Assembly: GCA_018398765.1 (NCBI GenBank)
Contig: JAHBMJ010000466.1
Coordinates: forward strand, 73,820 to 104,649
Reading direction: 5' to 3'
DNA length: 30,830 nt
DNA from: Chromera velia
Taxonomy: Eukaryota; Sar; Chromeraceae
The notes under the pieces were generated by a model. The model made no database searches, was not told the DNA's origin, and worked only from the letters and a program-made list of their open reading frames with translations. This document shows positions 2,999-26,932 of the stretch, one piece after another (position 1 is the first letter of the stretch; each line of letters opens with the position of its first letter). The position numbers and the translations under genes are program-made.

Positions 2999-5900
2999 AT
3001 GGTAGTAAGTAAAGTTGTTGCTGCAGGAGGCTTATTGGCCGCCGCAGTAAAGGCATTTTCACCCGGTCGGCTGAGCAGGCCCAACTTGGGTTTTGGTGTT
3101 TCCGTCTCCAACGGAGGGGGCTCGCTTCTCTCGAGACGAGGAAGAAGTTGGACTCCGGTGAGTTCCAGGGAAGTGGAACAATGGGACAGAAGGGCTAGAT
3201 ACCCTTGTGGCGAGTTATACTGCTCTTGTGGTGAAAGAACACTGCAGGTGCCTTCGTTCTTTTTTTTCTTTTTCCCGTCTCGGTGCGCGTCTCGTCTCTT
3301 GTCTGTTCCTTTCTTCTTCGCTCTCTTCCAGTCGCATTTGAGAATCAGTTTGCTTATCCTCTATTTTCTCTGCTGTTTTGCTTTCAGGATGGAGACGAGG
3401 TGACGTTCACAGTGTTGAGAGATTCCGAGCCAACAAAGGAGTCCGTCTCCCTCACCGATGAGGAGACCTTGGCAGATGCAGAGTTGGAATTGGAGGGCAA
3501 CATCCGTCAGTCTCCTCAGCCTGCCTTTCTGAGGTCGTTCATACGAGGAAGGAAAGGGGCGGCATAAAGGATCAAGGGGCTTTCGATGGATGCCTCTCTC
3601 TGTTGTCGTGTGTCCCCCCTTCGAGGAGAATAGTTTGGCCTTTGTCTTCCTATATATGTCTTTCTTTTCTTTCTCCTTTGCACCGCGTTTCCTTCGCCCT
3701 TCCTGGCAACCACCTAAGCTTGGGCAGGTGTTTTCGATTCTCTCCGTTTACTCTATGGCCGCAAACCTCCCCCCCTTCTGATCTGTTTGAGCTAAGGTCA
3801 CCCAGACCACAACAAAAACAAAACAACAGCAATGTGTGCCCTTTTTACGTCCGCCGTCTCCCCTCCCACCAAGCACTTCCGTTCTTAACGGCTTCATCGC
3901 TCAATAATCCATCTGACACACAAAGTGACTGAATGCATCGATCGTGTGTGTGTGAGAGAGAGCAGATGACAAGTACGACATGGAGGCGAAGAAGGACGCG
4001 GGGTTCGACGCCTTCATGGAGGGATTGGTGAAGTCCTCCGAATACGGTCTGCCTCCTGAGGGACTTGAATTTTTGGACCAGGCCGACAGGGAGGCCTACA
4101 TGGAGGGATTGGGGGTCGTGCAGAGCAAAACTGCAGAGTGGAACAAACAGGTCTCTCCAGATGGAGGACCCAAGTCCATCACAGACAGCTCAGGTGGGAC
4201 AGAACAGAAAAGAGAAGACTAGAGACACAACTAACGGCGGCATGCGTTCTTTTTTCCTTCATCTGCTTCCCTGCGGTCCCCCTTTCTGCCTCCTTTCACT
4301 TTTCCTTCCTTCTTTCAGTCCTTCCTTTCCCTCCCTCATTCAAACCTCCTTTGTTTCCTTCCTCTCTAAGTGCCGTTACGCTACTCGTGGTTGGAGAAAG
4401 AATTTCTAAGAATGAAGGTGTTGAGGGTCGCACGTGCGTCTGCATGCACAGGCAGGGGACGTGTGTTTGCTTATGCGTGTCTCTGCCTGCCAACTGAGCC
4501 ACCTACCCACCTTACCTGCCTGCCTGGCTGTATGTGTGTCCGTGTGCAGGTGAGGAGATGCAGGAGGTGCTTGAAGTTTCGTGAAGTTTCATACAGGCTT
4601 CTTGATGAAGCTTTGATTAATACTTCTCTGTGCAGGTGAGGAGGTGGAGGAGGTGCTGGACGACGAGCAGGCAGAGCACGGCGTGATCCCCGTGCCTGCG
4701 TGGACGCAGCCCGGGTGCATCATCTCCTTCTTCAACGAGACAGCGCCCTACGTTATCAGCAGGTGGCAAATCATGAGACCGGTAGGTCGGTAGGTCGATC
4801 ATCTGTCTATGTGAGTGTGTTGTGGGTCTGCCAGCTGGAGTGCTCCTCCGTCCGTTCGTTCGAAGAAAGTCTGTGCTCAGTCATCGTGTTGAGCCAGACG
4901 CTTTGGCAAGGAGAGAGTCGAAAAAGAAGCACGGCACTGGAATGTTCGGGACGGCATTTTGGTCCAATCTGCGAAAATGTATGGAGGACTTTGAGTCATC
5001 TGAGAGGAGACAGACGTAGGAGAAAATGTACAGTTTTGGTTTGACTCGGTCTGTCTGACTGCAGCTGAACGTGAGGACAGGAAGGGTTCTTCCTGAAAGC
5101 CTGTTTGCAAAATTCCTTGTGTATTTCTCCCTTCTAGACTGGCTCCCTCTCTTTCGTTGATTCATACCTTGGTTTTACCCGGCTTTGTTTGTCTGACTGC
5201 AGCTGATCGTGAAGGCCTCTACAGCGCAACAATTTTCGGAAATTGTATGCCTTTTTTTTTTAGATTTGCTGACATTCACTGGAAGCACTCTCGATGAATA
5301 ATTCTTTTTACTATGACTGCAGCTGAATGTGAAGGATGGTGCGATGTTGGTGAGGAGGGTGAGTGACGAGGAGTTCAACAAGATCGGGAAAGAGCAACCA
5401 CGCGTGTTCGTCAAGATGGCCAAGAGCGTGGATGAAATCAACGTACGTACGTACGTGGAATTGTTTTCTCGATGGATTGGCTGATTGATCAGTGTTTGTG
5501 AAGACAGCCAGAACAGTCGATGAAATAAATAGTGACTTTCTGTAGGTCGGGAGGCAATGAAGGGAAGTAGGGAGGTGATAGGAAAAGGAGATGACAGTCG
5601 AACAAAGAAACAACGCCGCAGTCAAACAAAAAACCATGGAGGGAAACCGGATGTCTGTTAGGAGACCGCATGTCCGTCACGACACAGTGGGAAGTAGGTT
5701 GAGCTTTTTTCCCTTCTCTGAAAGCATAGATACATCCAGCTTTCTTCCCTTCGGCCATGGATTATCTGTCCAACAATGCACCGCACTTCATCGAAGTCCC
5801 ACTCTGATCGCAGAGGCTTCCTTTTGTCCTTCATCTGGACAAAAAACAAAGGGTGCGTTGAGGAACATCAGTTTGTTTGTGTATGTGTGTGTGTGTGTGT

Positions 5901-7703
5901 GCCTGCAGAATCTGCGGAAGAAGGGCGCCTCCCAGGCAGACCTCGAGAATCAAATGGCGGAGATGGACAAAATGACTGATGAGGCCATCGCAGCGACTGC
6001 ACGTCCCTTCCGAGAGGCGTCGTTTTTCTCTGAATTTCCTGAATTGGCCATTCTTCGTGTCGACAGACTGTTCAACCAGAACACGCAGAGATTCATCTGG
6101 GGATCGGAGGTTGGTTGGGTGGTCTGTCTGTTTGGATGTCTGTCTGTCTGTCTGTCGGATTTTGACTCTTTCTTTCTTCCTTTCTCCTCTCTTTCTTTCT
6201 TACCTCTCTTTTTTCTTTCTTTATCTCTCTTTCGTTGCTTTTTTCCGTGATTCCTTCCTTGCTTCCTTCCCGATCTGTTCGTTTGTCTCTAATGTTTCTT
6301 TCTCGCAATGACTCGCTTCTCCTCTCCTCCCCTCTATCTGTGTCTGCAGACGAAGCGCACTCACTGGCTGCTGACGGAGGGTCTCCCCAATTTGATGGAG
6401 GCCGACAAGCAACTCCATCACAAGTTGAAGCTGGAGGCCGCCAAGAGAAAGGCAGACCCAAACTACCAAATCAAACCCAAGTCTCTCCAGGAAGACGACG
6501 AAGACGATCAAGACCCTCATGACATCCCCTACACAAACTTCGCCTTCCAGAGGGCTAGCTCAAAACTTTTCCTTCAGGAGCCGTTCTGGGAACAGGTCAG
6601 ACAGACACGCAGAGCGTTTAAAGCTTGTCCTCTCTTGTTCGTATTTTATTTTTCTTGTTGCTGTTTTCCCCGACCCTCGCTCTCATTCGCGCCAGTCAGA
6701 TTCTCTCTCTTTCTATGATGATCACTATCGAAAGGGTCCTGATCTTTTTCGTTTTCCCTGCATGCGAGCAACTTCCGTGTTTTGCCCAAGTTTGCCCTCG
6801 TGAATGTTCCTTCCCGCCTGCACACAGGTGTGCGCAACTCCTTTGAGACTTCTTCTTATTCCGATGTGCATAGAAACAAATTCTCCCACGCCCCCGAACC
6901 CATGTCTCCTCTCTATCTATCTCCATGATCAACCGACCCCCGGCTCCCCCTGTCCCTGTGCCCTGAATTACATTGCAGCCCGGCCCTGTCGGACTTGAGA
7001 GGCTGGAGACCTTCCACGGCTTCTTCCCCACAATGGGGGTCTCAAAGAAAGACCTCGGCTTGGCGGGCTACCTGACCAAGTACCCGAACCCTGCCATTCC
7101 CCTCAACCATATGAAGATCTTCTCAGAGATCGAGACTATGTACTTCGATAATGTGCGTCAGTCTTCGTGGTCGGGTGGTTTCTGTATGATTTGTTCTCTT
7201 GTCTTGTCGTGTGACTCAAAGAGAAAGGAAAGAAAAATGAAAAAGAAGTCAGATAGTCTGTCTGGCCGAAGGGATAGTGTGTTCAGACAGAGAGACAGGC
7301 CAAAGGAAAAGGAAGGGAGGCTGTGCATTCATGTCTATGAAAGACACCGAGCAAATGAGGCAGACAGAAGCAGCACTGTGCGTCAAAAAGGCCTTCTCGC
7401 CCCCAAGAAGGAAGAAGACAGTCACACGGCAGATGGGAAGCACATCTAGCGTCTGTGTGTGCAGAACATCTCCGCCTATCTGTCGACATTCGTCTATCTG
7501 TGATGCATGCTGCCTTCAAATGAGGGAAAACGGACAGAACAAAAAAGAAGAGAAGAAAACCACACTGTCCTTTGCTCTCCCTCTCTGTTCTTTGTGCAGG
7601 GATTCCGTCCTTATCGGTTCCAGCTGCTGCTTCGTGTTCTCATGATCTGGTACAAGATCGTGCTGCAGGTCTGTGTCGTCTCCCTGTGCCTGCCTGCCTG
7701 CCT

Positions 7704-7769
<66 letters not shown>

Positions 7770-8809
7770 CTTTTTGACGGGGGCTGTGTTTTCTGTTGGG
7801 GGGCGCCTGGATCGCTGATCAGTAAAGAATTAATCTTTGATGTGGTGTCTGTCTGTCCTTTCTCTGCTGCCCCCCCTGTTGTGTTTCCCCTTCTCTCCTT
7901 CAAGTCTTCCCACCCGTTTTCCTCCTTGTCCCTGTTTCTATCCTCCACGATCCCTTTCCCTTCTGTCCTGATGCTGCAGCAAGCCTGGATAAGCGAGCAG
8001 GGCATGATGGACCCCTACTTGGACGCCGCCAGCAGCTACAGGGTTGAGCTGAAGGGCCTGAACTCGGAGTTCAATCTGACAGACCCCCGAATTCGTGAGA
8101 CGATTGAGAGAGGAGACCTCGAGAGAATCGGGGAGATCCTCACTCTCGGCCAGTCTCGGGTGTACCAGAAGGAGAAGGAGCCCCCGACTGCAGAGGAAAT
8201 CAAAATGTTCAGAAAATACCTCGAGAGACAAGGAAGCCCGGAGGCCGCACAGCTGACCGACGAGCAGATCAAGGATCAACTGGTGGAACTAGACATGAAT
8301 GTGCAATTGAATGATGCCGTGATCGAGAGTCCTCTACGGTTGGTTACTGGGCGGTCGAAATGAAGGAATTATACGCTTGCTTCCACGCAGACAGATAGAC
8401 AGAAGAAAAGAAGACATTTCTTTTCCGTCTCCGCAGAGGGTTTGCGTGTGCCTCCCTGCCCCCACTGTGGTCCTAATATTAGCCGGGCTGTGTGTTCACG
8501 CATTCTAGTGTAGTGGTCTCGGTGCCGCGCCTTTTATTGGATCTCGCCCCTTGGACCTCTTTTTCTCTTCACCTCTTCTCTTTTCTGATTCTTTGATGTC
8601 TTGATTGTCTGCATCTCTATTTCCCTCCCTGCAGCCCCCGTTTCACCAGCATGGACCTGGAGACGAACCGCAACCCGGAGGACGCCATGGGACCTGTAGA
8701 CTCTATTGACGTCACGCTGAGTGACATCTCCTCTTTGGACATTTACGGAGAGAACAACACTTGGGTGTACGACATTGTGCCCTCAACTGTGTCAGAGGTC
8801 AGTCGGCAG

Positions 8810-8851
<42 letters not shown>

Positions 8852-9518
8852 GACAGAGAGAGGCACAAAGAGAGCCGATGCAGAGGCATCGATCGAAACG
8901 GTCAGGCAGGAGACAGGGAGCAATTTTCATTTCCCCCCCCCCCCCAAATTCCCCACAAGAATCTACTCCCCCCTTCCTGTACCCACACCATACCCTTCTT
9001 AATTGATCTATCCCCTTTCTTTCTCTCCCTCCCTCCCTGCTCCTGTCTGTCTGCAGCCTGCGGACCCTAACTGGATGCTGACGCGATACCCCGCCCTGAT
9101 GGGGCCCAACTCGGGACCTGAGTGGGCGGCCATGCACATGCTGGACTCGATGGTCAGTCAGTCAGTCAGGGTGTGCAGAGAGGTCGGGAGAGAGGTAGAG
9201 AGAGAAGTCAGCCTGTGATTGAGAGAGTGAGGACGGGTACGTGTCCGGCAGTCCTACTAAGCTTAGTTCACCCAACCACCCACCGACCCTTTGTGTGTTT
9301 GAGTCCCCCACGCCGTCCAAATGAACCGCCCATGAAGGAACGGAACTGTTTTTTTTTTTTTCCCTGCTGCTGGGTGTCTGCCCTTCCCTCCCCATAGTGC
9401 AGTCAGCAGGGCCAGAGGAGATCCTGTAAGTATCTGAAAGATCTACTTGCAATATGCATGCGTGTCTAGACGCCTTGCAAGGCCTGCGGGCGGGTGGGTG
9501 CACATCCATCCCTTCCCN

Positions 9519-9552
<34 letters not shown>

Positions 9553-11409
9553 GACAGAGAGAGGCACAAAGAGAGCCGATGCAGAGGCATCGATCGAAAC
9601 GGTCAGGCAGGAGACAGGGAGCAATTTTCATTTCCCCCCCCCCCCCAAATTCCCCACAAGAATCTACTCCCCCCTTCCTGTACCCACACCATACCCTTCT
9701 TAATTGATCTATCCCCTTTCTTTCTCTCCCTCCCTCCCTGCTCCTGTCTGTCTGCAGCCTGCGGACCCTAACTGGATGCTGACGCGATACCCCGCCCTGA
9801 TGGGGCCCAACTCGGGACCTGAGTGGGCGGCCATGCACATGCTGGACTCGATGGTCAGTCAGTCAGTCAGGGTGTGCAGAGAGGTCGGGAGAGAGGTAGA
9901 GAGAGAAGTCAGCCTGTGATTGAGAGAGTGAGGACGGGTACGTGTCCGGCAGTCCTACTAAGCTTAGTTCACCCAACCACCCACCGACCCTTTGTGTGTT
10001 TGAGTCCCCCACGCCGTCCAAATGAACCGCCCATGAAGGAACGGAACTGTTTTTTTTTTTTTCCCTGCTGCTGGGTGTCTGCCCTTCCCTCCCCATAGTG
10101 CAGTCAGCAGGGCCAGAGGAGATCCTGTAAGTATCTGAAAGATCTACTTGCAATATGCATGCGTGTCTAGACGCCTTGCAAGGCCTGCGGGCGGGTGGGT
10201 GCACATCCATCCCTTCCCTTCCCTTATCTTCCCTTCCCCCTCTCTTCATTCCCTTCCTGCAGGTCGGCAACGGAGCAGCGAAGAGCCCGTGGCTCAAGAT
10301 GACCAAGGAGGACGGGTCTCTTCGGTTCAAGAAGCAAGACGTGAGTGCGGGGAGAGAGCGGGAGGGAGGGGAGCGGGTCGACGGATAGACGGGCACATCA
10401 GAAGAGGGTGCAGAAAGTGGTGAAGCGATCCGGTTTGAAGTTGGTCCGGTACATTATTTTGAAAGGCATTTTATTTTCTCTTTCAGCTGTTTCTTTTCGA
10501 AAATTGTCCTTTTGTTGGATCTATGCATGCATTTTTTCCGTTTTTTTCTCCTCTGCTCCAGTAAGCTCCTCCCTCATTCCTTCTGATTCCTTCGATCCTC
10601 CTGCAGGATCTGCTGAGATGTCTGGATGAGAAGTGGGAAGGCGTCCTGCAGGACATGAGGGTTCCTGTCTATGAGGTGAGTGAGGGGGGGGAATGGGACG
10701 TTTGCCGTGGGCTTCCTTCATCCTATGCTGTAGTTCTTTTTTTCTGTCCTCTTGCTCGCGGGCCTGATTCAGTTTTTCCACTCTCTCCACAAGGCCGGCT
10801 GTCCGTCCGCCTTCATCTCTTGTCGCTCAGTTTTCTTTGCATGACAGCTGTTTCTTTGAATTGCACACATTGTGGTGCTTGTGTTGCTTGCCTGCAGGGA
10901 GTGGGGGATATTGTGACTCTGAAGAGAATGAAGAGGAAGTACAAGACCGGGCAGATCGTGCGGTCCTACAAGGTCACGTTGACACCCCACTACCTGACCT
11001 GGATGATGGGGTCTCTTGGGTGCCATCTGCTGGGAGGACTGCAGGCTCGAGATGCAGCCACACACGTGGCACGGGAAATGTTCGGGCTGGGGCCTGAGGA
11101 GGTTCGTCATCATTTTCTCTCTTTGCTTCTCTCTCTGCCTTTCGATCTGTATTTGGGTGTGTGTGAGTATGTGCAGTTGTTTTCGTACAGAGACAAGAAA
11201 GGTTCAGCCAGAAATGGCTTGGGGAAAGAGGGTTTGGTTGAACGGGAACCGCTTCTGACCTTCCCTCTCCTCTTCGTTGTGTGTCTGGTGGTTCATTGGG
11301 ACGGTTCGGGGCTGTCCCGCTTGCAGTCATTTCAGTGCGAATGGGATGGACCCTGACCTCTGTGTGTGTGTGTGTGTGTGTGTGTGCGTTTGTGTATGTG
11401 TGTGTGAGT

Positions 11410-11454
<45 letters not shown>

Positions 11455-12795
11455 AATGCAGGAAATTGGAGACGCTCAGTTTGCAGACATGCTTCTGGAC
11501 AGGAGAGTTTTCAGACAGATCAGAAAGAAGATGCTTCCCAAGAAGGTAAGTAGTGAGTCTGTGTGAGAGAGGGGCCGTGAGAGAGGGAGCCTGCTCGCGG
11601 GCGTGCGTCAAACCGTCTGTCTGGTTTCAACATTTTGTCCTTCTGGGTAGGTGGAAAGGAAGTGGAAAGGAGCGAACGACTGATTTGCTCGAGCGCCTTT
11701 CAAAAGTCCTTTTTTTGTCGCCTTTTGCGACGTTCTGCAACCCTGCCCGTCCCTCATCTCCGCTCGTTCCCTTCTTTTTCACTGACTTGCCTTGCCACGC
11801 AAAGCCACACGTACATCGTTTTGGACGGACATCTCAGATGATCTGATCTGTCTGACTTTCTGCTGTGAATCAATCTGTCGACGCTCTCTTTTCTCCCTTT
11901 CTTGCTTGCAGGAACGGCTCTTGAAGGACGACACGATCTATAATGAGATCACAAAGGTCGATTGGTGGGGACTCGCTCTGTGTGTGTATGTATGTGTGTG
12001 AGAGAGAGTGAGAAAGGGAAGGTATGATATGTGCAGGGATTCGTCTCGTATTCATTAGTCGAGTTGCTGGTGCATTGAATAGAGGGGATCGAAGACAGAA
12101 TCCATTTAGACACGGATCCATTCACGAGTTGGAATGGAACCACGAGCTTTCCTTCAAGCGTTTTGGATCATAGAGTCTTTTCTCCCGTTCATCTTTGGGT
12201 GTGATTCCGCACATAATAAGACCAGGCCCAAAAATAACAAAACCGAAACAGCGTGTCACGATCAAAGAGAAGCGAAGAGAAGTGTAGCAGCAGGCTCACT
12301 GTCGATCCACTTTCCTTCTTTCCCTCTCTCTTTCTAATCTCCCCCCCCCTTCCCGCCCTTTCATCTCCTTTCTTCCCTCCAGGTTCTCGAGGTCGCCCTC
12401 AACTTCGCCCCTGCTCAGAGACCACCCGACCCTCTCGCACTGGCTGGACAGATCTCGAACATCCTTTTCGTCGTTCAGGGAAAGTCAGTCAGGCAGGCAG
12501 GCAGTAAGTGGGTGGGTGAGTGAGAGGTATGCGGTCAAAGCTGGAGAGACCGAAAAGGGGCGGGGGGGGGGGTCCTCTCCTTCAACGAAAGCAAAACCCT
12601 GACTGACTCAAGGGATCGAACAGAGCGCTAGCGTGTGCGGTCCGGGTGACGAGTAAGAAACAAGAAGAGAAGATGTGCATTCGATCACAGCCATTCATTT
12701 TGGCATGCACTGATTAATGCACCAGGACTGCGAGAGGAAACGGTGTCTTGTTTGTGTCGGATTTTCGTCTGCGTGTGTGTGTATGTGTGTGAGTG

Positions 12796-12847
<52 letters not shown>

Positions 12848-12853
12848 TGTGTN

Positions 12854-12891
<38 letters not shown>

Positions 12892-14810
12892 GATGATGCA
12901 ATTGATGACTGCAATTCAGAGCATGGTCCCAGAGGACGCCATGCCCGAGGATCTAGATGAGGAGACCGTGAAGAAGATCAACATCCTGCAGGTTCGTCAG
13001 TCGGTTCGTTGGTCGCTCAGTTGGTGGCGGTATTCACAGACAGACAAACAAGACAGGAGGAGCGAGGGAGCTTCGGGAGTTTTGTCGGAATCACGAGAGA
13101 GACAGGGGGTTGGCAGTGGAGGAACAGAGACGAGAGACGTGACTGAATGAGTGCAGTGGAGCTACGATGAGTGCTGAGAGAGGACTGAAAGTAAAGAAGA
13201 AGGCACACTGTCTATGCGTCCTGTCGTTTCATCCCTCTCCTCACCTCCTTGTATGTGTATGTTTCCCCCCCCTATGTATCAATATGTGTCTGCATGCAGT
13301 ACGACGTTGAGGACGCGAGGCTCCAGGCCCAGTGGGCTGCCTCAAGAGACCCCACGGGCAACACCCAGGCCCCCGATATGTCCCAGATGAAGGAACTCCT
13401 CACGAACCTCGACGAGGCAGGGGTGGGTCGCTCAGTTTTTTTTCTTCTTTGAGAACAGACAGTCAATGAGGGAGGGACGGAGGGACAGGCAGACATGCAC
13501 GGGGAGATATCGATAGAAAGACGGAGAGAGAAAATAAGCAGAATGCATGGAAAGAACAGAAAGCAGACGTGGAAAAAAAAATCTAAAAGGATACAAATGG
13601 GAAGAATTCTCGCAAAACTTAGTGAAGTGGGCAATCCGGAATAAAAGAAAGCAGGCAGGCGTCTGCCTCCCTTTCGCCCATTTTTCCCTTTCCGTCGTCG
13701 CCCTCTTCGTTCTTTGTTTCACCCCCAACGTCTCCTGCTTCCTGTTCTGTTCATATTCCGGTTTTCTTTCTACCCGTTGTCTGTTTGTCTCCCTCCCTGC
13801 AGATGAAGGAGATGCGGGACTTCTGCGGATTGGAGGAACGTCAGATCAGAAGGATGGCCGAGTGGAACTGGGACAAGATGGAGGCGGTCGTGCAGTCAGT
13901 GGCTGACGAAGAGAGACCGAAACCGGAAAACCTTGAGGCAGCACAGATGACGGAAGAGGATTTTCACATTTTTGAACTATTCTATCAAGGGATGGCAGGG
14001 GTGAGTCAGTGAATGAATGAATGAATGAATGAATGAATGAATGAGTAGTCGTTCTTTCTTTCTGTCTTTTTTTTCTTTGTTTGTTTGCTTTTCTGTCTGG
14101 TTCTTTCTCTGTTTGTTCGTTCAACTCGTGTCTCTGTAATTGTAGGTGCGTGATGTGCCAAAAAAGAAACAAACGAAAGATTGTTTGCAGCGAAGCCTGA
14201 AGAACTTTTTGCCCTCTTCCTCTCTGTCTGTCGCGTTTTACCCTTCACTTGTTTCTTCCTCGCCAACTTCCAACAGTGATAGATGTTGCTGCCTGCATGG
14301 AGGCATCCGTCATCCCTTCCCTTCCCTAGCTCCATTTCCCTTCCTTCCCCTCACTCAATTCACTCGGGCCCCGCTCTCCTCTCGAAGCCGACCGGGGCCC
14401 TTTCTGCTGAGGGTATCGGCCTTTATGGGCGGGCATTCAGAGGAGGTTCGATTCAATCCAACCCGCCCCCCCCCTCCCTGCAGATGCAAAGTCCTGAGGA
14501 AACCCGCAGGCAAAACGCAGAGAACGACAAACTGATGGAGGCAGACAGACAAAAACTCCTGAGGGTGAGTCAACTGACACACGCAAGGATTATGCGTCCT
14601 TGCGTGCGTCAATGGAGGCAGACAGACAGAAACTCATGACGGTCTGCAAGTCGACTGGCTGGTGCACCGTGCCGCCCTTGCAATCAGTCACCGTGCCGAA
14701 CACACCACCAATAAACAAGATCAAAAAGCACAACACTACTACACCCCACACAGCCTCTGTCCTACCTTGCGGCAAAAGAAGAAAACCAAGTCCTTTACAT
14801 GTGCGTGTGC

Positions 14811-15469: not shown

Positions 15470-15830
15470 NNNNNNNNNNNNNNNNNNNNNNNNNNNNNNN
15501 NNNNNNNNNNNNNNNNNNNNNNNNNNNNNNNNNNNNNNNNNNNNNNNNNNNNNNNNNNNNNNNNNNNNNNNNNNNNNNNNNNNNNNNNNNNNNNNNNNNN
15601 NNNNNNNNNNNNNNNNNNNNNNNNNNNNNNNNNNNNNNNNNNNNNNNNNNNNNNNNNNNNNNNNNNNNNNNNNNNNNNNNNNNNNNNNNNNNNNNNNNNN
15701 NNNNNNNNNNNNNNNNNNNNNNNNNNNNNNNNNNNNNNNNNNNNNNNNNNNNNNNNNNNNNNNNNNNNNNNNNNNNNNNNNNNNNNNNNNNNNNNNNNNN
15801 NNNNNNNNNNNNNNNNNNNNNNNNNNNNNN
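15470..15830. other. Assembly gap of 361 Ns
   Basis: A run of N flanked on both sides by G homopolymers (8 G on the left, 10 G on the right). Reads or contigs probably ended at the homopolymers. The gap size may be an estimate. Confidence 0.98.
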
Positions 15831-17697: not shown

Positions 17698-19770
17698 ATG
17701 ATCTCGCGGTGCGGTCGATCAAGTGCTGGTCCCCCCGCACTCACGTTTTGTCTGAGCAGGAGCGTCCAGATCCTTCTTTCCCTGTACCTTCTCTCGTGCT
17801 CCCCGCCTGTGAAAGCCACCGAGATCAAGTTCGGCATTCTCTCAGTCGATGCTGTGGACGATAAGTGGGGCACCACCTTCGTTGACTACCTCACAGCAAA
17901 CTTCGCAACCTATGCAAGCGGAAATGTGGACACGTTTAGCGTCACTACAGTGCCGTTTGTGAACACAAAGACTGTAGCGAAAGATAAGACAGTGGTAAGT
18001 GATCTGCTCAAGGCTCCTCAATCACCATGCATGTGTCTGCTTGTTCACTTCAACTTGCTTACTTTGCCACCATCCTCTCGCATGCCTGCAGGATTTCGTT
18101 TTCTTCAACCCCGGCATTGTGAGTCGCTCAACTGTTTTTGTTTGGGTGTATTGAGTCTTTTTGACACTTTCAGGAAGGCCTAGTTGACATACATACCCTC
18201 CATGAACTTTGTCTGCCCGAAGGTCAGTCATTTTTGGGACCAGTCCGTCTGCCGGCACACGCAGGCATCAGTCAGGCAGTCATCGACTAAGTGTTGTAAC
18301 AGCCATTTTACCGTCACCTCAGTCCGTCCGACTTCTCCAGCAAGAAGATAGTCAACATGCTTGCCCCACAGCAGGGAGAATGCAAGAGAGACAGAGAGAT
18401 GACGACAATAAAGCGAACCTGGCAGGAAAGCAGGGATGCTGGCGCCTGCAGGTACAGTCAGACACTGACAGCGCGATCCCTTGAGGGCATGCAAAGGCCT
18501 TGGGAGAAGACCTTCTCGGAAGAAAGCGGCAACAAACGGGCACAAGAACGGACAATCCACATTTGACCTCATCCTCACTTTGACTTCTTCTCCCTGCAGC
18601 ATGTGTATGCACATCCGATCATCCGTTGTCCTTCGTCGTTCAGAATTCCTGCATCGTGACTGAGTTCTCCGGCCAGCCGGTGGTGTCGTTGGTGAACAAA
18701 AGGCAGGGCCAGGTCTCGACTCGGTTTGGGGCGGTGATCCTGGCACGAAGGGACAACGAGGCGATCGACGAGGACAATCTCTCGACATTTGTCATCGGTC
18801 AGTCAGTCTCAACTTGGGCAGGATGGATTGTGCGTGCGTCAACAGAAGATGGCAACAGCCCCATGTACAGGCAAAAAAGAAGTGTTGCCGTCCTGAAAAG
18901 AATGGTTTCTTTCGTTCCCACCCGATCATGCATCCTTTAATTTTCTGCTCTGCATGCATGTGGGCCCACCCACGGAACTCAGTCGGTCACATGGACCGAC
19001 AAGTAAAGGCTCAGTACTTCCTCCTCCTATTTTGCACAGATGCATGTCGTTCTTCACTGCTCTCTTCCGATTGATTAAATTTACATCGAAAGAAAGAAAG
19101 ACCGAAAGATCGTATAATTGTCGCATGCATGCAGGGAAAAAGTTTGGAGCTGTCGACGTGTCTGCCTTTGGAGGTTTCCTGATGGCGGCCTCCACCGTCA
19201 CGAAGGACGTCCCCGGAGGCTCTTTGTTCTCTTCTCCCGAGACGGTCACCTTCCTCAAGGGACACGCGGCTGTTGTCAAGGCGATACTCAGCGGCGACAT
19301 TGACTCCGGTACGTGCATGGGCAGGCAGGTAGAAGAAAGCCAGATACAGAGACAGATAGGCTGATAGACAGAGAGACAGGGAGAGCTCTTACAGTGGTTA
19401 TGACTCGGCAAAAGCCAACACGCTTGGAATAAAGTCAACACACGTGGAATAAACAAATGAATGAATGAATGAATGAATGAATGAATGATTGATTGATTGA
19501 TTGATCGATTGATGAAATGATTGAATGCAGGGACCGTCAGGACAGACATCCTGGAGAAGATGGCGGCTGCTGGAACGATCCCCTCAGACATCATGAGCAC
19601 ATTCAAGATCTACAGGTAGGTGGGTAGGTAGGTAGATCAATGGCCTGCGTCACTCAGTCGTTTGGTGGGTCACTAAGTGCTGCGTTCACTTTAAGCTTGG
19701 CAGAATTGATCACCTCTCAATACGCCTTTTCATTGCTCTCTCTCTCGCTCTCTCCCTCTCTCTCTCTCTC

Positions 19771-19852
<82 letters not shown>

Positions 19853-20510
19853 GCACCTTTCCATTTTCTTCTTCCACTCTCCATCTCCCTCAGATTCCTC
19901 CTTTTCCTCACACTTGCTTCCTCTCCCTCTCTCTGAGTGTATGCTCATTTTCCGATGCTGTGCGTGCGTGCGTCACTGCCTCAACTTGCAGAACCCAAGC
20001 CGCAAGGGAAGAGCAGCCAGGGTTTCCCTTCATCCTCTCGACGGAGCTCTTTCCTGAGTGGCCACTAGTCGCTTTACCCCATGTCGACTATTGGATTCAG
20101 GAGGGGGTGGCGGAGACGCTCTTGGCAATCACCTCGTCTGACGATGCAGCGAGTGATGGAGGGTGCGTTTGTTTGCGTGTCTACCTTTTTTTTTTTTTGT
20201 CGGTTTTTGCTCTTTTGGATTTCCACCTCGATTGATGGTCCTCTTTTCCTGAGCACCCGATCTGTAAAACAATCTGCCATGAATGTTTTCTGATTAAAAT
20301 ACACCTCTAGGCTTACCTCTCGATGAATCTTCAGGGGCTTCCAAACCCCCCTTCCCGCCTCTCTCTCCTCCGTTCTCTGAGACAGGCTGTTGCCATCTTT
20401 CTTCGTACAAGTTCAAAATGCACATCTGCTGTCTCCCTCAGTCTGCTCTCTAGCTAGTTTCTTTGTTAGCCTGTCCATCTCCTACCACGCATGCCTGCTT
20501 CCCCCCCTCT

Positions 20511-20544
<34 letters not shown>

Positions 20545-23500
20545 TTGTGTGCAGGTATGAAAGATGGAACCTTCCGTTCACGTACGAGAAGGTGCACGAC
20601 GCCCTGGAGGACGCCCGTGTCCTGAACATCACAACAGAGGAGTGTCTCCTCAGGACAGCGACAACCTCTGCGTGGGATGTCGTGGTGTGCATCGACGGTC
20701 AGCGAGTGCGTGGGGGTGTGGGAAGAAAGAACAAAAACAAAAAAGGAAGATCGGCAGGCAGAGAGGCAATCTGTGAGGTAGGCAGAAAGTGATGAATGCA
20801 TAGTTTTGCTGTCTGACTGACTGATTGAATCATTGCCTGTTGAGTGCTTGCTTGCTTGCTTGCAGGTCTCTATAGACGTCCCGTAGAGGACATGGAGACG
20901 AACTGCGGGAGCGATGAGCCTTGTCTGTTGGCGGACAACTGTCTCTGCAAGCCGTGTCTTGCGTGTCCTACTGGCGCTACGTGCGCGGGAGGGCAAGCGG
21001 AGCCCGTCGCAGTTCAGGTGTGTTTGTCAGGGTGGGAGGGAGAGACTGAATTTGGAATCGAAATGACACGTTCTTCCTCATTGGCTTGAACTGCACGTCT
21101 TTGCTATCTTGTGCAAGCATATCTCCTGCTTTTCTGCTCGTCGTAGTTCAGGTGTGCTGTTTTCTTATTGGCCGTCGCCTTCTTGCTTTGCACATATTTC
21201 TGGTTTCCGCTTTTGAGTGGTGCCCCTCTGCTTAGGAACAGTTTCTTCACCTTTTTCATGGGAAACGACTTGCGTGTACCCAAGAAGTAATGTTTTCTCT
21301 TCAGAAATCTCGCCTGCCTGTTTTCCTGCCTGCAGGGTTGGTGGTCAGACCCTGAGGACATAACCCGAACTTTCTACGAGTGCTCTCCCGGAAGGTGGGC
21401 TCTTCTGTGAATGCATTCAGTGGTTTCATTTGGAGAGTTGGTCTTTGGAAAGCCATCGGCTTGTCTGCCTCTCTGTCCGATGAATTTAGAAAATTTCAAT
21501 CAATCTCTCCTCTCTATCTGTGCCGCCTTGTTTACGGAGGTTCACTCCGATTGTGCCAATCTTTTGTTAATGAGGAACTGCAGCACAAGCAACGAAGAAA
21601 AGGGAAAAGGTCCCAATGGACAGGGTAAGACTCCGGTTCAGTGTGCACGACTGAGAAGCACAGTGTTTTTTCTTGTCTCATTCTCCGTCCACAGATTTGT
21701 TCCTCTATGGAGGTGCGGGACAAACGTCATAAGACAGAAATTGTAAATAGGAATAAATGTATCGAGAGTGCTTCCTCCAAGTCAGTCAAGATGACTAAGA
21801 AAGAGCCTTCATGCCAACCTGTGCCTTGATGCATGCAGGTGCGAAACCAATGCCAATGGTGAGGTGGTGTGTCTGAGGAACTTTGAGGGCCAGATCTGCT
21901 CCAGGTGCTCGGACTCTTTCTTTAACCTGAAGAATTCTTGTCTTCCGTGCTGGCACTCTAATCTGGGCGTGGCGGTCTTCCTCTTCGTCGTGTGGATCTT
22001 TTTCCTCTTGGGGGTCGGCGTTGCGCTCTCGTACCTTACACGTCCCAGGTCAGGCTGCCATCTGTCTGGGGGGCTCCCTGGGTTCATTTCACTGAGAGGA
22101 GAGGGGGTGTCGTCATCAATTTCAGCCTCAACGCTTCATTTTGGATGAAGCGGCGAGGATGCTCTTACCTCTCGGTGTCGCTTTTTTTTGTCTGCAGGTC
22201 TCTCTCTTCTCTCTGCGAGTGGGTGCGTGTGTGGGTGTTCTTTTAAGGAAGAGAAAAGACAAAGAGTGGACTTCTGTCTGCCGTTTGCTTGCATGCTTGC
22301 TTGCTTGCCTGCCTCTCGGTCTCCCACTCAGCATACCTGGCTTTGCCTGTCCGTCTCTTTGATTTTGTTTGCAGGAGACAGGACGTGACTATTCAGGTGT
22401 TTCTCGTTCTTCTCCAACTGCAAATCTTCACATCTCTGAACTTCTACAGAACAGATGGGGCAGTCGCAACACTGGAAGGCCTCACATCGTTCCTCTACAT
22501 GATCGTCAGTCAGTTAGTCAGTCAGCCAACCAGTCAGGGAATCTGTTAGCTGTTCTTATTTGTATGCCAGCCCTGACGGAAGACCTGGTAGTCTTTTTGT
22601 TTTCCCAGCGCTCGCTCATTCTCTTCAGTGGCTCTTTTTTGCTCCTCCAGTCTATTCGAGTTCGTCTTCTTCACACACCAGGAATTCTCCTCTTCTCAGA
22701 TCTTCAGATTTACTTCGACAGTAAACTAAACAGGTGGACAAAGCAGACGGGTGAATTATGCAAATGTGTATGTGTGGATTAAATGGTCTGACTGATGATA
22801 CACGGGTATCATGGTGCAGGTTTCCTTCCCTGTCGAGATATTCGGATTCGAGTGCGCGATGGGAGCAAAGTACACAAAGTTCACGGGACTCTTGTTGACA
22901 CTCATGATTCCCACAGGTCATTCCCACACGCCGGTAGTTTGTCTATAGCAGTGTGTGTGTATGTGTGTATGTGTGTGTGTGTGTGTGTGTGTGTTTGAGC
23001 CACTACTTTTACCTTTTCGAAATTGAGGCCCTTGGCGATTGACTGAAACGGGAAGCTTTGCCAGCAGGTTGTCTGTTGTCCTCTGCCAGTTCTTCAATTT
23101 TTTCGTTTTTTTTTACGCCTTTTTTGTGTCGTCTCTCCTTTTTGGCAGCTTCTTTTCCTTTACGTTTCTCACCCACCGAATGCATCCAAAGAAGCTTCCC
23201 ATCTGGGTACTCAGCTCTGCTGTGGTCCTATACACACGCCGATAGAGCCCTTTTTGCGTTTGTTCATTCGGCAGATACTCCGTTTTGTTTCAGTTCGAAC
23301 CTCGTACACGAGCAGACCGGCCTGTTTGAACACGAAAAACCCACGCACACGGCACGGCATTGAATCCTCTCGTGATATCCTTCCGGCGCGCCCGCATGCA
23401 GGCCTGCTTGCAACTGCCTCTGCCATCGAGGGGCTCGTCTACCTGTACGAAAAACGGCAACAGAAACTCGTGGACGAGCAGCGTCCTCCCAACCGTGGAG

Positions 23501-26500
23501 TGAGCACAGAGGGGGAAGACCGGCCGAGAACATCAAGAAGGAGTATCGACCTCTCCAGAATGTCCTCTGTGATTGGGGAGGCACTGACAAGCAACCTCAG
23601 ACACAGGGTTCGGCAGGCGCGTCTCCTCTCGGCGCGCTTCTCGTTCATTCCAGTCCTCTATAGATTCGCCTCAATTGGGGACTGTTTCGAGCAGGTGCGT
23701 GTGTGTGTGTGCGCGTATGTGTGTGTGCGTGTGTGTGTGTGTGTGTGTGTGCGTGTGTATGTGTGTGTGTGCAGATTTGAATGCATACGTGTACGCGCAC
23801 ACTTCTAAGAAGACAATTTGTCAGGCCAACCGATACACAGTTGAATGAATGGATCAATCACTGACTGACTAACTGACTGACTGACTGAGTGACTGACTAA
23901 CTGACTGACTGACTGACTGACTGACTGACCGACTGACTGACTGACTGACTGACTGACTCACTGACTCACTGACTCACTGACTCACTGACTGACTCACTGA
24001 CTGACTGACCGACCGACCGACTGACTCACTGACTGACTGACTGACCGGCCGACTGACTCACTGACTGGCTCACTGACGGACTGAATCACTGACTGACTGA
24101 ATGACCGACCGACTGACTCACTGACTGACTGACCGACCGACTGACTCACGGACTGACTGACTGACCGACCGACCGACCGACTTGCTCACTGACTGACTGA
24201 CCGACCGAGTGACTCACTGACTCACTGACTCACTGACTGACCGACCGACTGACTCACTGACTGACTGACTGACCGACCGACTGACTCACTGACTGACTGA
24301 CCGACCGACTGACTCACTGACTGACTGACTCAAGGACTGACTGACTCACCGACCGACCGACTGGCTCACTGACTGACTGACTGACCGACCGACCGACTGA
24401 CTCACTGACTGACTGACTGACTGACTCACTGACTCACTGACTGACCGACCGACTGACTCACTGACTGACTGACTGACCGACCGACTGACTCACTGACTGA
24501 CTGACTGACCGACTGACTCACTGACTGACTGACCGACCGACTGACTCACTGACTGGCTCACTGACTGAATGAAACAATCCACGCATCCATCCCTGCATCC
24601 CTGCATGCAGCCAAGCGGGTTCTACAGTCTCCGAGACGAGCCCTCTTTGGAGTGCTTCGAGTCCGAGTGGAACCGGTCTCTTGCTCTGACAATCGTCGGC
24701 CTCACCTTCTTTGCCGTCGTCATGCCTCTCTTCATCTTCTTCACCACCCACACCTTTAAAGACGTTCTCAGTGCAACTCTCGTCTCGGATCCGAGCAATA
24801 ATCCGGTCAGAAAACCGTCTGCCCCATGCTTTGTCTGTTTCCGATGATTTCTTATGATCTTTTTTATCATGGTCGCCTTGACAGCTTTTTTGCAAAGATC
24901 ACCTTTCTGTTGCACACTGCAAAGATTCTCATTGTTGGACCCTGTACGCGAATTCCGGGAATGGATCCACACGAAGGGCATGCCTTTTTGTCTGTGGATT
25001 GTCTGTCTAATCTTGTATAGATCTGCGATTCAATTTTGCAGTCCCTGAAGCATCCAACTTTCGGCAACGCCTCTCTTAAAAAGAAGACGGAACAGATGCT
25101 GACGGTCTCCTGGATCTTCCTGACTGATTTTGTGCAACAGTACAGGTCAGTGTGCTTCCTTCTCTGTCTTTCCCCCCCCCCTCTCTCTATCTGTCTGTGT
25201 GTGTGTGCGTGTGTGTATGTGAGAAATTTCGTCAATGGATCCCCAGATTGATTATGCCTGTTGCGTTTCTTGTCTCTATTCGCTGTGCGGCTCTCCTGCT
25301 GCCTGCAGATTCTGGTGGTTGGTGATCTGTGCAAGGGACACGGCGCTTGCGGTTTCGTTCCTGGCGGCCCCAGACATGAGCACAAGACTTGTGGTGACGG
25401 GGTCAGTACGTCAGCACCCTTGTTCTTCATTCATTCGTTTCCCCCCTGTCCCCCATGTTTGATTCATTTGTTTTCCATCCATTTCTTCGTTCAGTCTTTC
25501 TTTCACTCACTCATATCCGACTCGACTTTGAAGTTTTTGTGGAGAACGTTTGACAAATGACAGCTCCTCCGAGAAGATAGACTCATGAAAGTACGCATAC
25601 AAGGATAGAAACGCGCACACACAAACGCACACTAGAGCACCCACATACGGAAGGGAAGATGGAGGGAGAGCGCAAATCTGAAGACTTGGGTGAGGCTGCC
25701 CACAGAATCAATCAGCTCCTGCATACCCGACATGTGTCGGGTTACTCGTCTGGAGATGAAAACATTTTTTGGTCGCCTTTTTGTCTGCCTCTCTGTCCGT
25801 CTGTCGACTCTTCGTCCCCATGTGTGTGGTTTTGCTTTTTCTATCTCTTGCTTTTCATCTGACGTGCATGCAGTTTTATCTTGCTTGCCTACGTGCTTGG
25901 TCTTCTGATTCTGGGGCCCTTCCGAACGAATCACATGAACAACACGGAGGCCGTCCTTTCGTCTCTCAATTTGATGGCAAGCGTGCTGCTTCTGTCCATC
26001 GCGTCTTCCTCTTCGGAGTCCTCTAGCTCAGAAGAGAGGACAAGTGGGGGTCTGAGGGACAGCGTGGACTACCTGCTGTTCTCTCTCTTCTTCTGCTTCC
26101 TGCTGGCACTCGGACTGATCTGGTTCCTCTCGAGAAAGTCAGCATAGCATGCACACACGTGCAAAGAGAGAGAAAGAGAAAGGGCAGAGGGAAGACCTGG
26201 ATAGGGACTGTGTGTGAAGCAAGCATGTTCTGCTGTTTGTTCATGCTTCTGATAGTCTTTCTTTTTCTTTGGTCTATTGAACATCAATCGGTGTGTGAGT
26301 CCATGCATGCCAATGCTTTTACTGTTGGCGCGTTTGCCCTCTCTCTTTCATCTCGCGAGGCTTTCCTTCATCGACCCGACCCGCTAGCTTGTTTTGCTTG
26401 CAGGTCTCCAACTTTCCGCAAAGTGAATCTGTTGAACCGAAAAGTCGCCTATGCAGTCAGGGTGGACAAATTCAGACACCTGAGTGTTCCGGGTCTTGGA

Positions 26501-26932
26501 GCCTCTTTCAGAACAGACCAGTCCTTTGTGGGTGATCTGATTCACGAGAGCTCACCCATACGCCAGGAGTCCGCGCAAAGACAAGAATCTTCTCTCAGGG
26601 ATGAAGGCGCCAGCGGGCAGCCGAATACAAAGGGACGCAGGGTGTCGATCAACGAAGGAGCCGACCAGGCACAGATGCTTCCTCCAGTCAAAGAGGAGAA
26701 AGAGAACGAAGAAATTCGGATTTTGGGAAGAGAAATGGAGACATCGAGTCCACCGGCTCAGAGAATGGAAGAAGGATTCTCAACAGGTAACCGAGCTAAA
26801 GGGCCAGAGCAAGTAGAGGCGGATGGAGGAGGAGAAGGAGGAGACGGCCTGATGGAAGACCTACCGATGGAAGATGATGAGCCGATACAAGTCCCGTCGT
26901 TCCAGGGAAAGAAATGGGAGATGATCATGTGA
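17698..26932 (+). CDS. Chimeric membrane receptor: PhnD/TtrS-like binding domain, Cys-rich module, multi-span membrane domain (18 exons, 1,058 aa)
   Basis: Exons: 17698-17994, 18092-18118, 18644-18797, 19135-19308, 19531-19615, 19992-20162, 20555-20697, 20866-21017, 21336-21394, 21839-22048, 22375-22504, 22820-22916, 23402-23694, 24611-24805, 25042-25145, 25309-25401, 25874-26137, 26404-26932. All phases close (3,177 nt); an in-frame TAG at 17686 precedes the ATG. A signal peptide (core VQILLSLYLLSC) is followed by a type-2 periplasmic binding domain, about aa 41-350: FGILSV, DFVFFNPGI, LVNKRQG..TRFGAVILARRD, VRTDILEKMAAAGTI, LFPEWPLVALPH and a final W.LPFTYEKVHD. These match phosphonate/TtrS-type sensors. 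Aa 364-458 carry 14 Cys with CLACPTGATC, GWWSDPED and GQICSRC, like GCC2/GCC3 (ephrin-receptor-like) modules. Membrane spans follow near aa 463-487, 495-515, 555-582, 688-710, 764-785, 795-811, 860-880, with FWWLVICARD in one. A basic, Ser-rich loop (583-664) and acidic tail (884-1058) should be cytosolic. No kinase is present. Ligand unknown. Confidence 0.87.
18092..18118 (+). other. 27-bp microexon of the receptor gene
   Basis: Encodes only DFVFFNPGI, between a TGCAG acceptor and a gtgagt donor, phase 0 on both sides. In PhnD-type binding proteins the equivalent strand carries residues next to the ligand pocket. Skipping it would keep the frame but remove this strand. Automatic gene finders may miss it. 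Confidence 0.75.
19736..19848 (+). repeat. (CT)n microsatellite
   Basis: About 113 bases of CT with a few interruptions, in intron 5 of the receptor gene, some 140 bases upstream of the exon 6 acceptor. Continuous Leu-Ser frames through it are not coding. Confidence 0.95.
20515..20541 (+). repeat. (GT)n tract before the exon 7 acceptor
   Basis: A short pure GT run, then gaatttgtgtgcag, leads into exon 7 of the receptor gene. Same arrangement as in three introns of the preceding gene. Confidence 0.9.
21139..21158 (+). repeat. Copy of the exon 8 donor junction inside intron 8
   Basis: CGTCGTAGTTCAGGTGTGCT repeats the end of exon 8 and its donor at 21005-21024 with two mismatches, 134 bp downstream. 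It is the fourth example in this window of a splice junction echoed in its own intron. Confidence 0.75.
23695..23772 (+). repeat. (GT)n tract starting at a donor site
   Basis: The repeat begins at the exon 13 donor itself (gtgcgtgtgtgtg) and continues for about 78 bases with CG interruptions. The splice donor is thus the first unit of the microsatellite. Confidence 0.9.
23861..24568 (+). repeat. 708-bp CTGA/CCGA satellite with higher-order structure
   Basis: Almost entirely the tetramer CTGA with CTCA, CCGA and CGGA-type variants. The variants are ordered: many units read CTGACTCA, then several CTGA, then CCGACCGA, giving repeating blocks of about 28 or 32 bases. It fills most of the 916-bp intron 13 of the receptor gene and stops 42 bases before the exon 14 acceptor. 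No spacers are present, so it is not a CRISPR array. Confidence 0.95.

Follow-up and report, generated by a model that had tools for sequence, protein, structure and literature searches.

A candidate flytrap-type sensor with a cysteine-rich stalk and a membrane module of several spans in Chromera velia

The stretch of DNA analysed here, referred to as the window, comprises 30,830 nucleotides (nt) from Chromera velia (assembly GCA_018398765.1, contig JAHBMJ010000466.1, positions 73,820 to 104,649 of the forward strand). It carries a gene of 18 predicted exons whose product joins a substrate-binding domain of bacterial type to a cysteine-rich stalk and a membrane module with several spans.

Gene model and features of the locus

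Spliced according to the 18-exon model, the gene yields a reading frame of 1058 amino acids (aa) without internal stop, with a guanine-plus-cytosine content of 0.54, 0.45 and 0.65 at the three codon positions. All 17 introns have GT-AG ends, and the acceptor reads TGCAG in 16 of them and TTCAG in the remaining one (exon 3). The 17 junctions proposed in a preliminary description of this DNA were thus upheld as a predicted gene model joining the exons into one open frame. A first model with 21 exons (three extra exons, one exon longer) was discarded because direct joins preserve the phase and fit a paralog, C3454, by eye. The whole-protein Pfam scan was performed with this earlier version, whose first nine exons are identical to the final model, and some searches with the membrane part (one PDB search and a 489-aa genome query) also used pieces of it. 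The features, all on the plus strand (+) and in window coordinates, are as follows.

17698-26932 (+): gene, 18 exons spliced, stop at 26932
17698-17994 (+): exon 1
17698-17817 (+): start codon in exon 1, followed by an N-terminus resembling a signal peptide (aa 1-40), hydropathy peak at aa 14-32
17818-20642 (+): substrate-binding domain of TtrS/PhnD type (aa 41 to about 332), encoded by exons 1-7 and interrupted by six introns, placed by PF12974, NF040750 and alignment
18092-18118 (+): exon 2, a 27-nt micro-exon encoding DFVFFNPGI, consistent with the aligned bacterial rows
18644-18797 (+): exon 3, acceptor TTCAG
19135-19308 (+): exon 4, pocket motifs SAFGG and GHAAVV
19531-19615 (+): exon 5, with VRTDILEKM
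19992-20162 (+): exon 6, with FPEWPLVALPH
20555-20697 (+): exon 7, in which the binding domain ends
20698-20865 (+): intron 7/8, 168 nt, the sole junction connecting the binding domain with the cysteine-rich part
20866-21017 (+): exon 8, cysteines 1-7 of 14
20904-21950 (+): 14-cysteine module, aa 364-458, exons 8-10, placed by the cysteine positions
21336-21394 (+): exon 9, a single cysteine
21839-22048 (+): exon 10, the final six cysteines together with span 1
21963-26137 (+): membrane module, counted as nine spans, placed by hydropathy and paralog links
22375-22504 (+): exon 11, span 2
22820-22916 (+): exon 12, FECAM segment and beginning of span 3, cysteine aligned with C3454 and C3287
23402-23694 (+): exon 13, rest of span 3, basic loop and putative span 4, the latter below the hydropathy threshold
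24611-24805 (+): exon 14, span 5
25042-25145 (+): exon 15, basic loop
25309-25401 (+): exon 16, span 6
25874-26137 (+): exon 17, spans 7-9
26404-26932 (+): exon 18, tail of about 175 aa, presumably cytosolic, and stop

The signal peptide is predicted to be cut after VKA. An ACTG-type tetramer array (713 nt at 23860-24572, about 178 copies, 82% matches) takes up the greater part of intron 13/14, and runs of CT, TG, GT and AATG are found in other introns.

The substrate-binding domain, its origin and its pocket

The preliminary description had recognised a PhnD/TtrS-like binding domain from the motifs NPGI, LVNKRQG, TRFGAV, VRTDILEKM and FPEWPLVALPH, all of which are present in the translation. 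Profile searches with the spliced protein agreed with this assignment, as the Phosphonate-bd family (PF12974) matched aa 95-297 with 68.4 bits against a cut-off of 27 (E 8e-19). With the binding domain alone, NCBIfam ranked the TtrS kinase first, matched in its sensor part (NF040750; 58.7 bits, E 4e-16), ahead of a phosphate/phosphite/phosphonate family (28.7 bits), PhnD (23.5) and a model for a putative selenate protein (20.6). No NCBIfam model reached its own cut-off for the binding domain, and the protein does not qualify as a TtrS tetrathionate kinase, the equivalog cut-off of NF040750 being 750 bits and no kinase domain being matched by Pfam in the chain. Neither was an ABC (ATP-binding cassette) permease or ATPase matched by Pfam in the window protein, in line with the earlier statement that no such partner is attached. 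The closest solved chains by profile were the type-II periplasmic binding proteins (PBPs) PtxB (E 8e-19) and ArrX (E 4e-15), then HtxB, AioX and PhnD.

Bacterial relatives, aligned in 31 rows, share 27-35% identity with the binding domain, and of the 46 columns in which at least 90% of these rows agree, the window keeps the residue in 33 and differs in 13. A scan of genome contigs yielded one bacterial locus with an open frame of 1180 aa, 33% identical in the best segment and covering residues 1-282 of the 292-aa query. In the phylum to which the genome of locus L011 belongs, 40 of 297 genomes matched at E 1e-10 or better, and several of the top bacterial genome matches sit within open frames of 896-1181 aa. 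Plasmids contributed matches in 105 of 72,556 records; among the best 20 of these, the top eight are annotated as sensor histidine kinases and three others as PhnD-, SsuA- or transferrin-type binding proteins. No relative was found on viral contigs. Within the C. velia assembly (177.8 Mb, 4040 contigs), the binding domain as protein query matched its own exons only, and profile searches of the whole genome with PF12974 (E 0.001) and PF04069 (E 10) returned nothing, probably because exons are read singly. As there are many bacterial relatives and no second copy in the genome, a bacterial source of the domain appears likely.

Phylogenetic trees of 32 and 31 rows, sampled from the single phylum mentioned above, were used to place the domain. 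L060 was left out of the second tree, two long branches having met; L066, a fragment, was left out of alignment A2, and L041 was omitted as a copy of L011. Rows were labelled kinase-type or transporter-type by the length of the open frame downstream of the domain, with no domain search behind the labels. The 11 transporter-type rows grouped as one clade (support 100/99). The window, whose branch is very long, was placed outside it, with kinase-type rows as its nearest neighbours by path. However, a grouping of the window with this clade was not rejected (approximately unbiased test, p 0.393).

Pocket positions were taken from the profile alignment to 5jvb. In Te_PtxB, phosphite is contacted by Y55, Y100, S130, T131, S132 and H160, as given in parts of the source text (PMC5700983). 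The window has F87, F136, A170, F171, G172 and H203 at these sites, so that the histidine alone is retained (one of six) and the STS-H oxyanion motif with its tyrosine contacts known from PtxB and PhnD is absent. At the same six sites, the 31 bacterial rows mostly carry F (29), F (26), S (30), F (25), G (31) and H (28). The TtrS-like group itself therefore already departs from PtxB, and the window has additionally lost the serine. Besides H203, the window keeps R221 (found in 30 of the 31 rows), E226, W269, W307 and Y313; the serine of SFGG is changed to Ala170 and the invariant tyrosine of LYPEWP to Phe266. According to passages of PMC5408782, TtrS is thought to bind tetrathionate via a domain of this kind and thiosulfate elicits a response from ThsS, and AioX is presented as an arsenite binder in excerpts of PMC5908839. 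The oxyanion ligands put forward in the preliminary description hence suit the type of family better than the pocket: a sulfur or phosphorus oxyanion would be a guess from the family, weakened by the pocket changes.

The cysteine-rich stalk, the membrane module and their paralogs

The binding domain is followed by 14 cysteines between aa 364 and 458. The preliminary description had called this part ephrin-receptor-like. The cysteine count stands, and the label is not backed by Pfam for the window protein itself, which matched none of the ephrin-type models including PF07699 (Ephrin_rec_like); the name thus derives from the paralogs. At E 0.01 or better, with 150 of 154 candidates scored, PF07699 was found in at least 72 places of the genome, including C3454, C1557, C2050, C2156 and C233, and none of the places listed lies on C465 (the contig of the window), C3287 or C1338.

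C-terminal to the stalk, hydropathy peaks are located at about aa 465-483, 494-512, 530-548, 557-575, 688-706, 765-783, 791-809, 821-839 and 862-880, with a weaker hydrophobic stretch at aa 641-660. The scan is unspecific, since its threshold also marks aa 163-181 inside the binding domain. If the tail and the basic loops (one behind span 1, a long one at 580-640 and one preceding 765) are placed inside, we infer approximately nine crossings, in which 641-660 traverses the membrane and 530-548 forms an extracellular hairpin. Seven or more spans and a long cytosolic tail had been described before; the multi-span character and the tail were retained and the count was revised to about nine. Cysteines 546, 661 and 679 align with cysteines of both C3454 and C3287 in a three-row alignment. 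PDB searches with the membrane part gave chance matches only.

Seven loci of the genome (C3454, C1557, C2050, C2156, C233, C3287 and C1338) share the cysteine-rich part, the membrane module or both with the window protein, and paralogs display this layout beneath differing N-terminal modules. A 76-aa query of stalk and span retrieved C3454 (37% over 62 residues, E 0.005) and, more weakly, C1557 and C3073; the latter match (L014) was no usable relative on inspection by eye. C3454 (L012, minus strand) carries an OpuAC-like domain upstream of its cysteine repeats and membrane part (PF04069, E 0.0017, 18.4 bits, below the cut-off of 21.2; NCBIfam ProX, E 0.0013). C233 (L039, minus strand) has four ephrin-type stretches with PF07699 over its cut-off, and its N-terminal part resembles a type-I binding protein by eye and without such a Pfam match. 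In C3287 (L038, minus strand), upstream exons that look HYR-repeat-like by eye precede cysteine-rich and TRP-like parts. The stretches upstream in C2156 (L037) and C1557 (L013), both on the minus strand, are OpuAC-like by eye only, and the C2156 piece had no Pfam or NCBIfam match. No N-terminal module was seen in C2050 and C1338. PF06011 (Pfam TRP) scored 33.4 bits in C233, 26.8 in C2156 and 22.1 in C3287, and with a cut-off of 28.5 C233 alone passes. Two further observations concern these loci: a charged open frame of 574 aa lies downstream in C3454, and C2373:461-598 (L025) matched the membrane query (E 0.00165) with one internal stop.

The kinship of the window's own module was examined against shuffles within blocks of 12 residues, which roughly preserve the hydropathy pattern. 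Stalk plus membrane part scored 33.1 bits with C3454, summed over three stretches (best of 498 scored shuffles 17.0). Without the stalk, the membrane part scored 19.9 bits, against 18.6 for the best among 996 scored shuffles. The C-terminal half of the module reached 20.2 bits with a profile of six paralogs (at most 10.9 in 996 scored shuffles) and 22.4 bits with a five-paralog profile lacking C3454 (best of 1000 shuffles 15.3). In four tests, one of them narrowly, the window is therefore linked to the paralogs above every scored shuffle. Among the paralogs themselves, C3454 scored 29.8 bits with C3287 (top shuffle 10.8) and 103 bits with the profile of the five others (top shuffle 17.1). On this modest evidence, the shuffle-tested links suggest that the module most likely belongs, as a divergent member, to a family of which the better representatives match TRP/FLC/Pkd2 proteins, its kinship to PF06011 running through the paralogs.

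A proposed flytrap on a TRP-like module: possible mechanism, alternatives and meaning

At a probability of roughly 0.44, we favour the reading that one gene encodes a sensor of the flytrap type, which controls a channel or carrier of TRP/FLC-like kind. The signal peptide would export the TtrS-type flytrap to the outside or into an organelle lumen, where its two lobes would close on a small solute. The disulfide-rich stalk would transmit this closure to the membrane module, with its proposed nine spans and its putative place in the TRP/FLC/Pkd2-like (PF06011-like) class. This module may act as a carrier or as a channel under ligand control, in the latter case most likely for Ca2+ or other cations. 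By pulling on the stalk the closing flytrap could open the module, with the steps from closure to current being conjectural, and the tail of 175 residues may tune it. For a chain with neither kinase nor ABC parts, flytrap, stalk and module would constitute the simplest signal route. The preliminary description had left the signal to the membrane domain itself or to partners bound to the tail; a candidate effector can now be proposed within the chain, because three paralogs match the TRP family PF06011. Fungal PF06011 proteins have been tied to calcium homeostasis, and Pkd2 of Schizosaccharomyces pombe is described as a Ca2+-permeable channel in sections of PMC10732042.

Several results weigh against this sensor-channel proposal. 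PF06011 does not match the window's own membrane module, nor C3454 or C1338, and the match in C3287 (22.1 bits, 19.9 in another scan) was lost with extended sequence. The 33.1-bit link to C3454 is a sum of three stretches including the cysteine-rich part, the top single one giving 17.1 bits, and the membrane part alone exceeds its shuffles by a narrow margin. Against C3287 the window scored -1.3 bits, under the best shuffles and thus without signal, and the entire window protein scored 8.9 bits with the six-paralog profile, below the best shuffle, and 16.3 with the five-paralog profile. The 489-aa membrane query from the 21-exon model did not retrieve C3454 from the genome. When the binding domain was searched against PDB as a single sequence, only a chance match was returned and none of the relatives found by profile, and most known oxyanion contacts are missing from the pocket. 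In addition, FLC proteins have also been described as flavin carriers (PMC10732042, in part).

The same description lends itself to an uptake system, in which the binding domain would capture a solute for import by the FLC-like module, or the whole protein would be internalised with its cargo. We consider this unlikely, though the best of the alternatives. ABC importers use stand-alone domains of the same family, and phytotransferrin is taken into the cell together with its cargo. The phytotransferrin ISIP2a is said, in a portion of PMC7676907, to share its origin with phosphonate-binding proteins. However, the chain contains no ABC part and ends in a long tail, the nearest NCBIfam model is a sensor kinase, and sensor histidine kinases likewise head the plasmid matches.

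The order of parts also recalls class C G-protein-coupled receptors (GPCRs), as in mGluR and CaSR (ANF, NCD3G, 7TM), so that flytrap, stalk and seven spans might signal through G proteins. Ephrin-receptor-like domains occur on choanoflagellate glutamate-type GPCRs (PMC12716839, in part), and class C candidates with a PBP domain are reported from diatoms in passages of PMC3727952. Yet 7tm_3, ANF_receptor and NCD3G were not matched in the window protein at E 1 and the hydrophobic segments exceed seven, which makes GPCR coupling less likely; the PF06011 matches of three paralogs also speak against it, and we regard it as improbable.

About as improbable is a binding domain that no longer binds a ligand and now serves as a structural or cell-surface part. 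The 13 changed columns of 46, among them Ala170 and Phe266, and the long tree branch would fit such a loss, whereas the 33 columns kept, the retained residues H203, R221, E226, W269, W307 and Y313 and the open reading frame argue against it. That two adjacent genes were joined on paper is very improbable: the model was read from DNA alone and only the exon 7-8 junction connects binding domain and stalk, but that intron has consensus-like ends and fitting phase at 168 nt, six cysteines share one exon with span 1, and in C3454 a single open frame spans the end of the binding domain and the cysteine repeats by eye.

If the sensor-channel reading were extended to the paralogs, bacterial solute-binding domains of several families would sit on a cysteine stalk and a TRP/FLC-like module, forming a modular receptor class of flytrap-gated TRP-like channels that parallels class C GPCRs and ionotropic glutamate receptors from other parts and possibly senses sulfur or phosphorus compounds and osmolytes. 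We hold this wider proposal to be rather doubtful.

Among known systems, the protein resembles the TtrS/ThsS-type sensor histidine kinases in the type of extracytoplasmic binding domain and in its nearest NCBIfam model, but lacks a kinase match, carries the stalk and multi-span module instead, and has alanine for the serine of SFGG and phenylalanine for the tyrosine of LYPEWP. With the periplasmic proteins PhnD, PtxB, HtxB, AioX and ArrX it shares the type-II PBP profile and the equivalent of PtxB H160, and differs in A-F-G for STS, phenylalanine for both Y55 and Y100, the membrane fusion and the absence of an ABC part. Ionotropic glutamate receptors follow the plan of a flytrap plus a membrane effector. 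This plan is common to class C GPCRs, these channels and the window protein, whose flytrap family and membrane module are different. To fungal TRP/FLC/Pkd2-like proteins the membrane module would be related via C233, C2156 and C3287, the window itself being unmatched; their TRP domain is accompanied by ML or TRP_N (sections of PMC10732042), in contrast to the bacterial-type binding domain and cysteine stalk found here.

No description of a protein of such composition was found among the papers listed by searches of the open-licence PMC literature, and the chromerid genome paper (PMC4501334) contains none of the words ephrin, GCC2, periplasmic and G-protein in its main text. The plan of flytrap, stalk and effector is already known; the present combination of parts was not found described, and automatic annotation may already list the fusion. 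Should the proposal be correct, a eukaryote would have coupled solute sensors of bacterial type to membrane effectors of TRP-like kind, which would offer a handle on small-molecule sensing in such protists and on external control of PF06011-type proteins. The question is testable because the binding domain of each paralog can be produced singly and screened.

As to the surroundings of the gene, Rfam and tRNA scans of the window gave no match. A run of 361 N at 15470-15830 upstream of the gene represents an assembly gap or a withheld stretch, and single N are located at 9518 and 12853. Exon-like open stretches at about 5600-13100 on the plus strand suggest a second multi-exon gene, and a Pfam scan of six pieces at E 0.1 turned up a single weak match, to a LEM domain (E 0.02).

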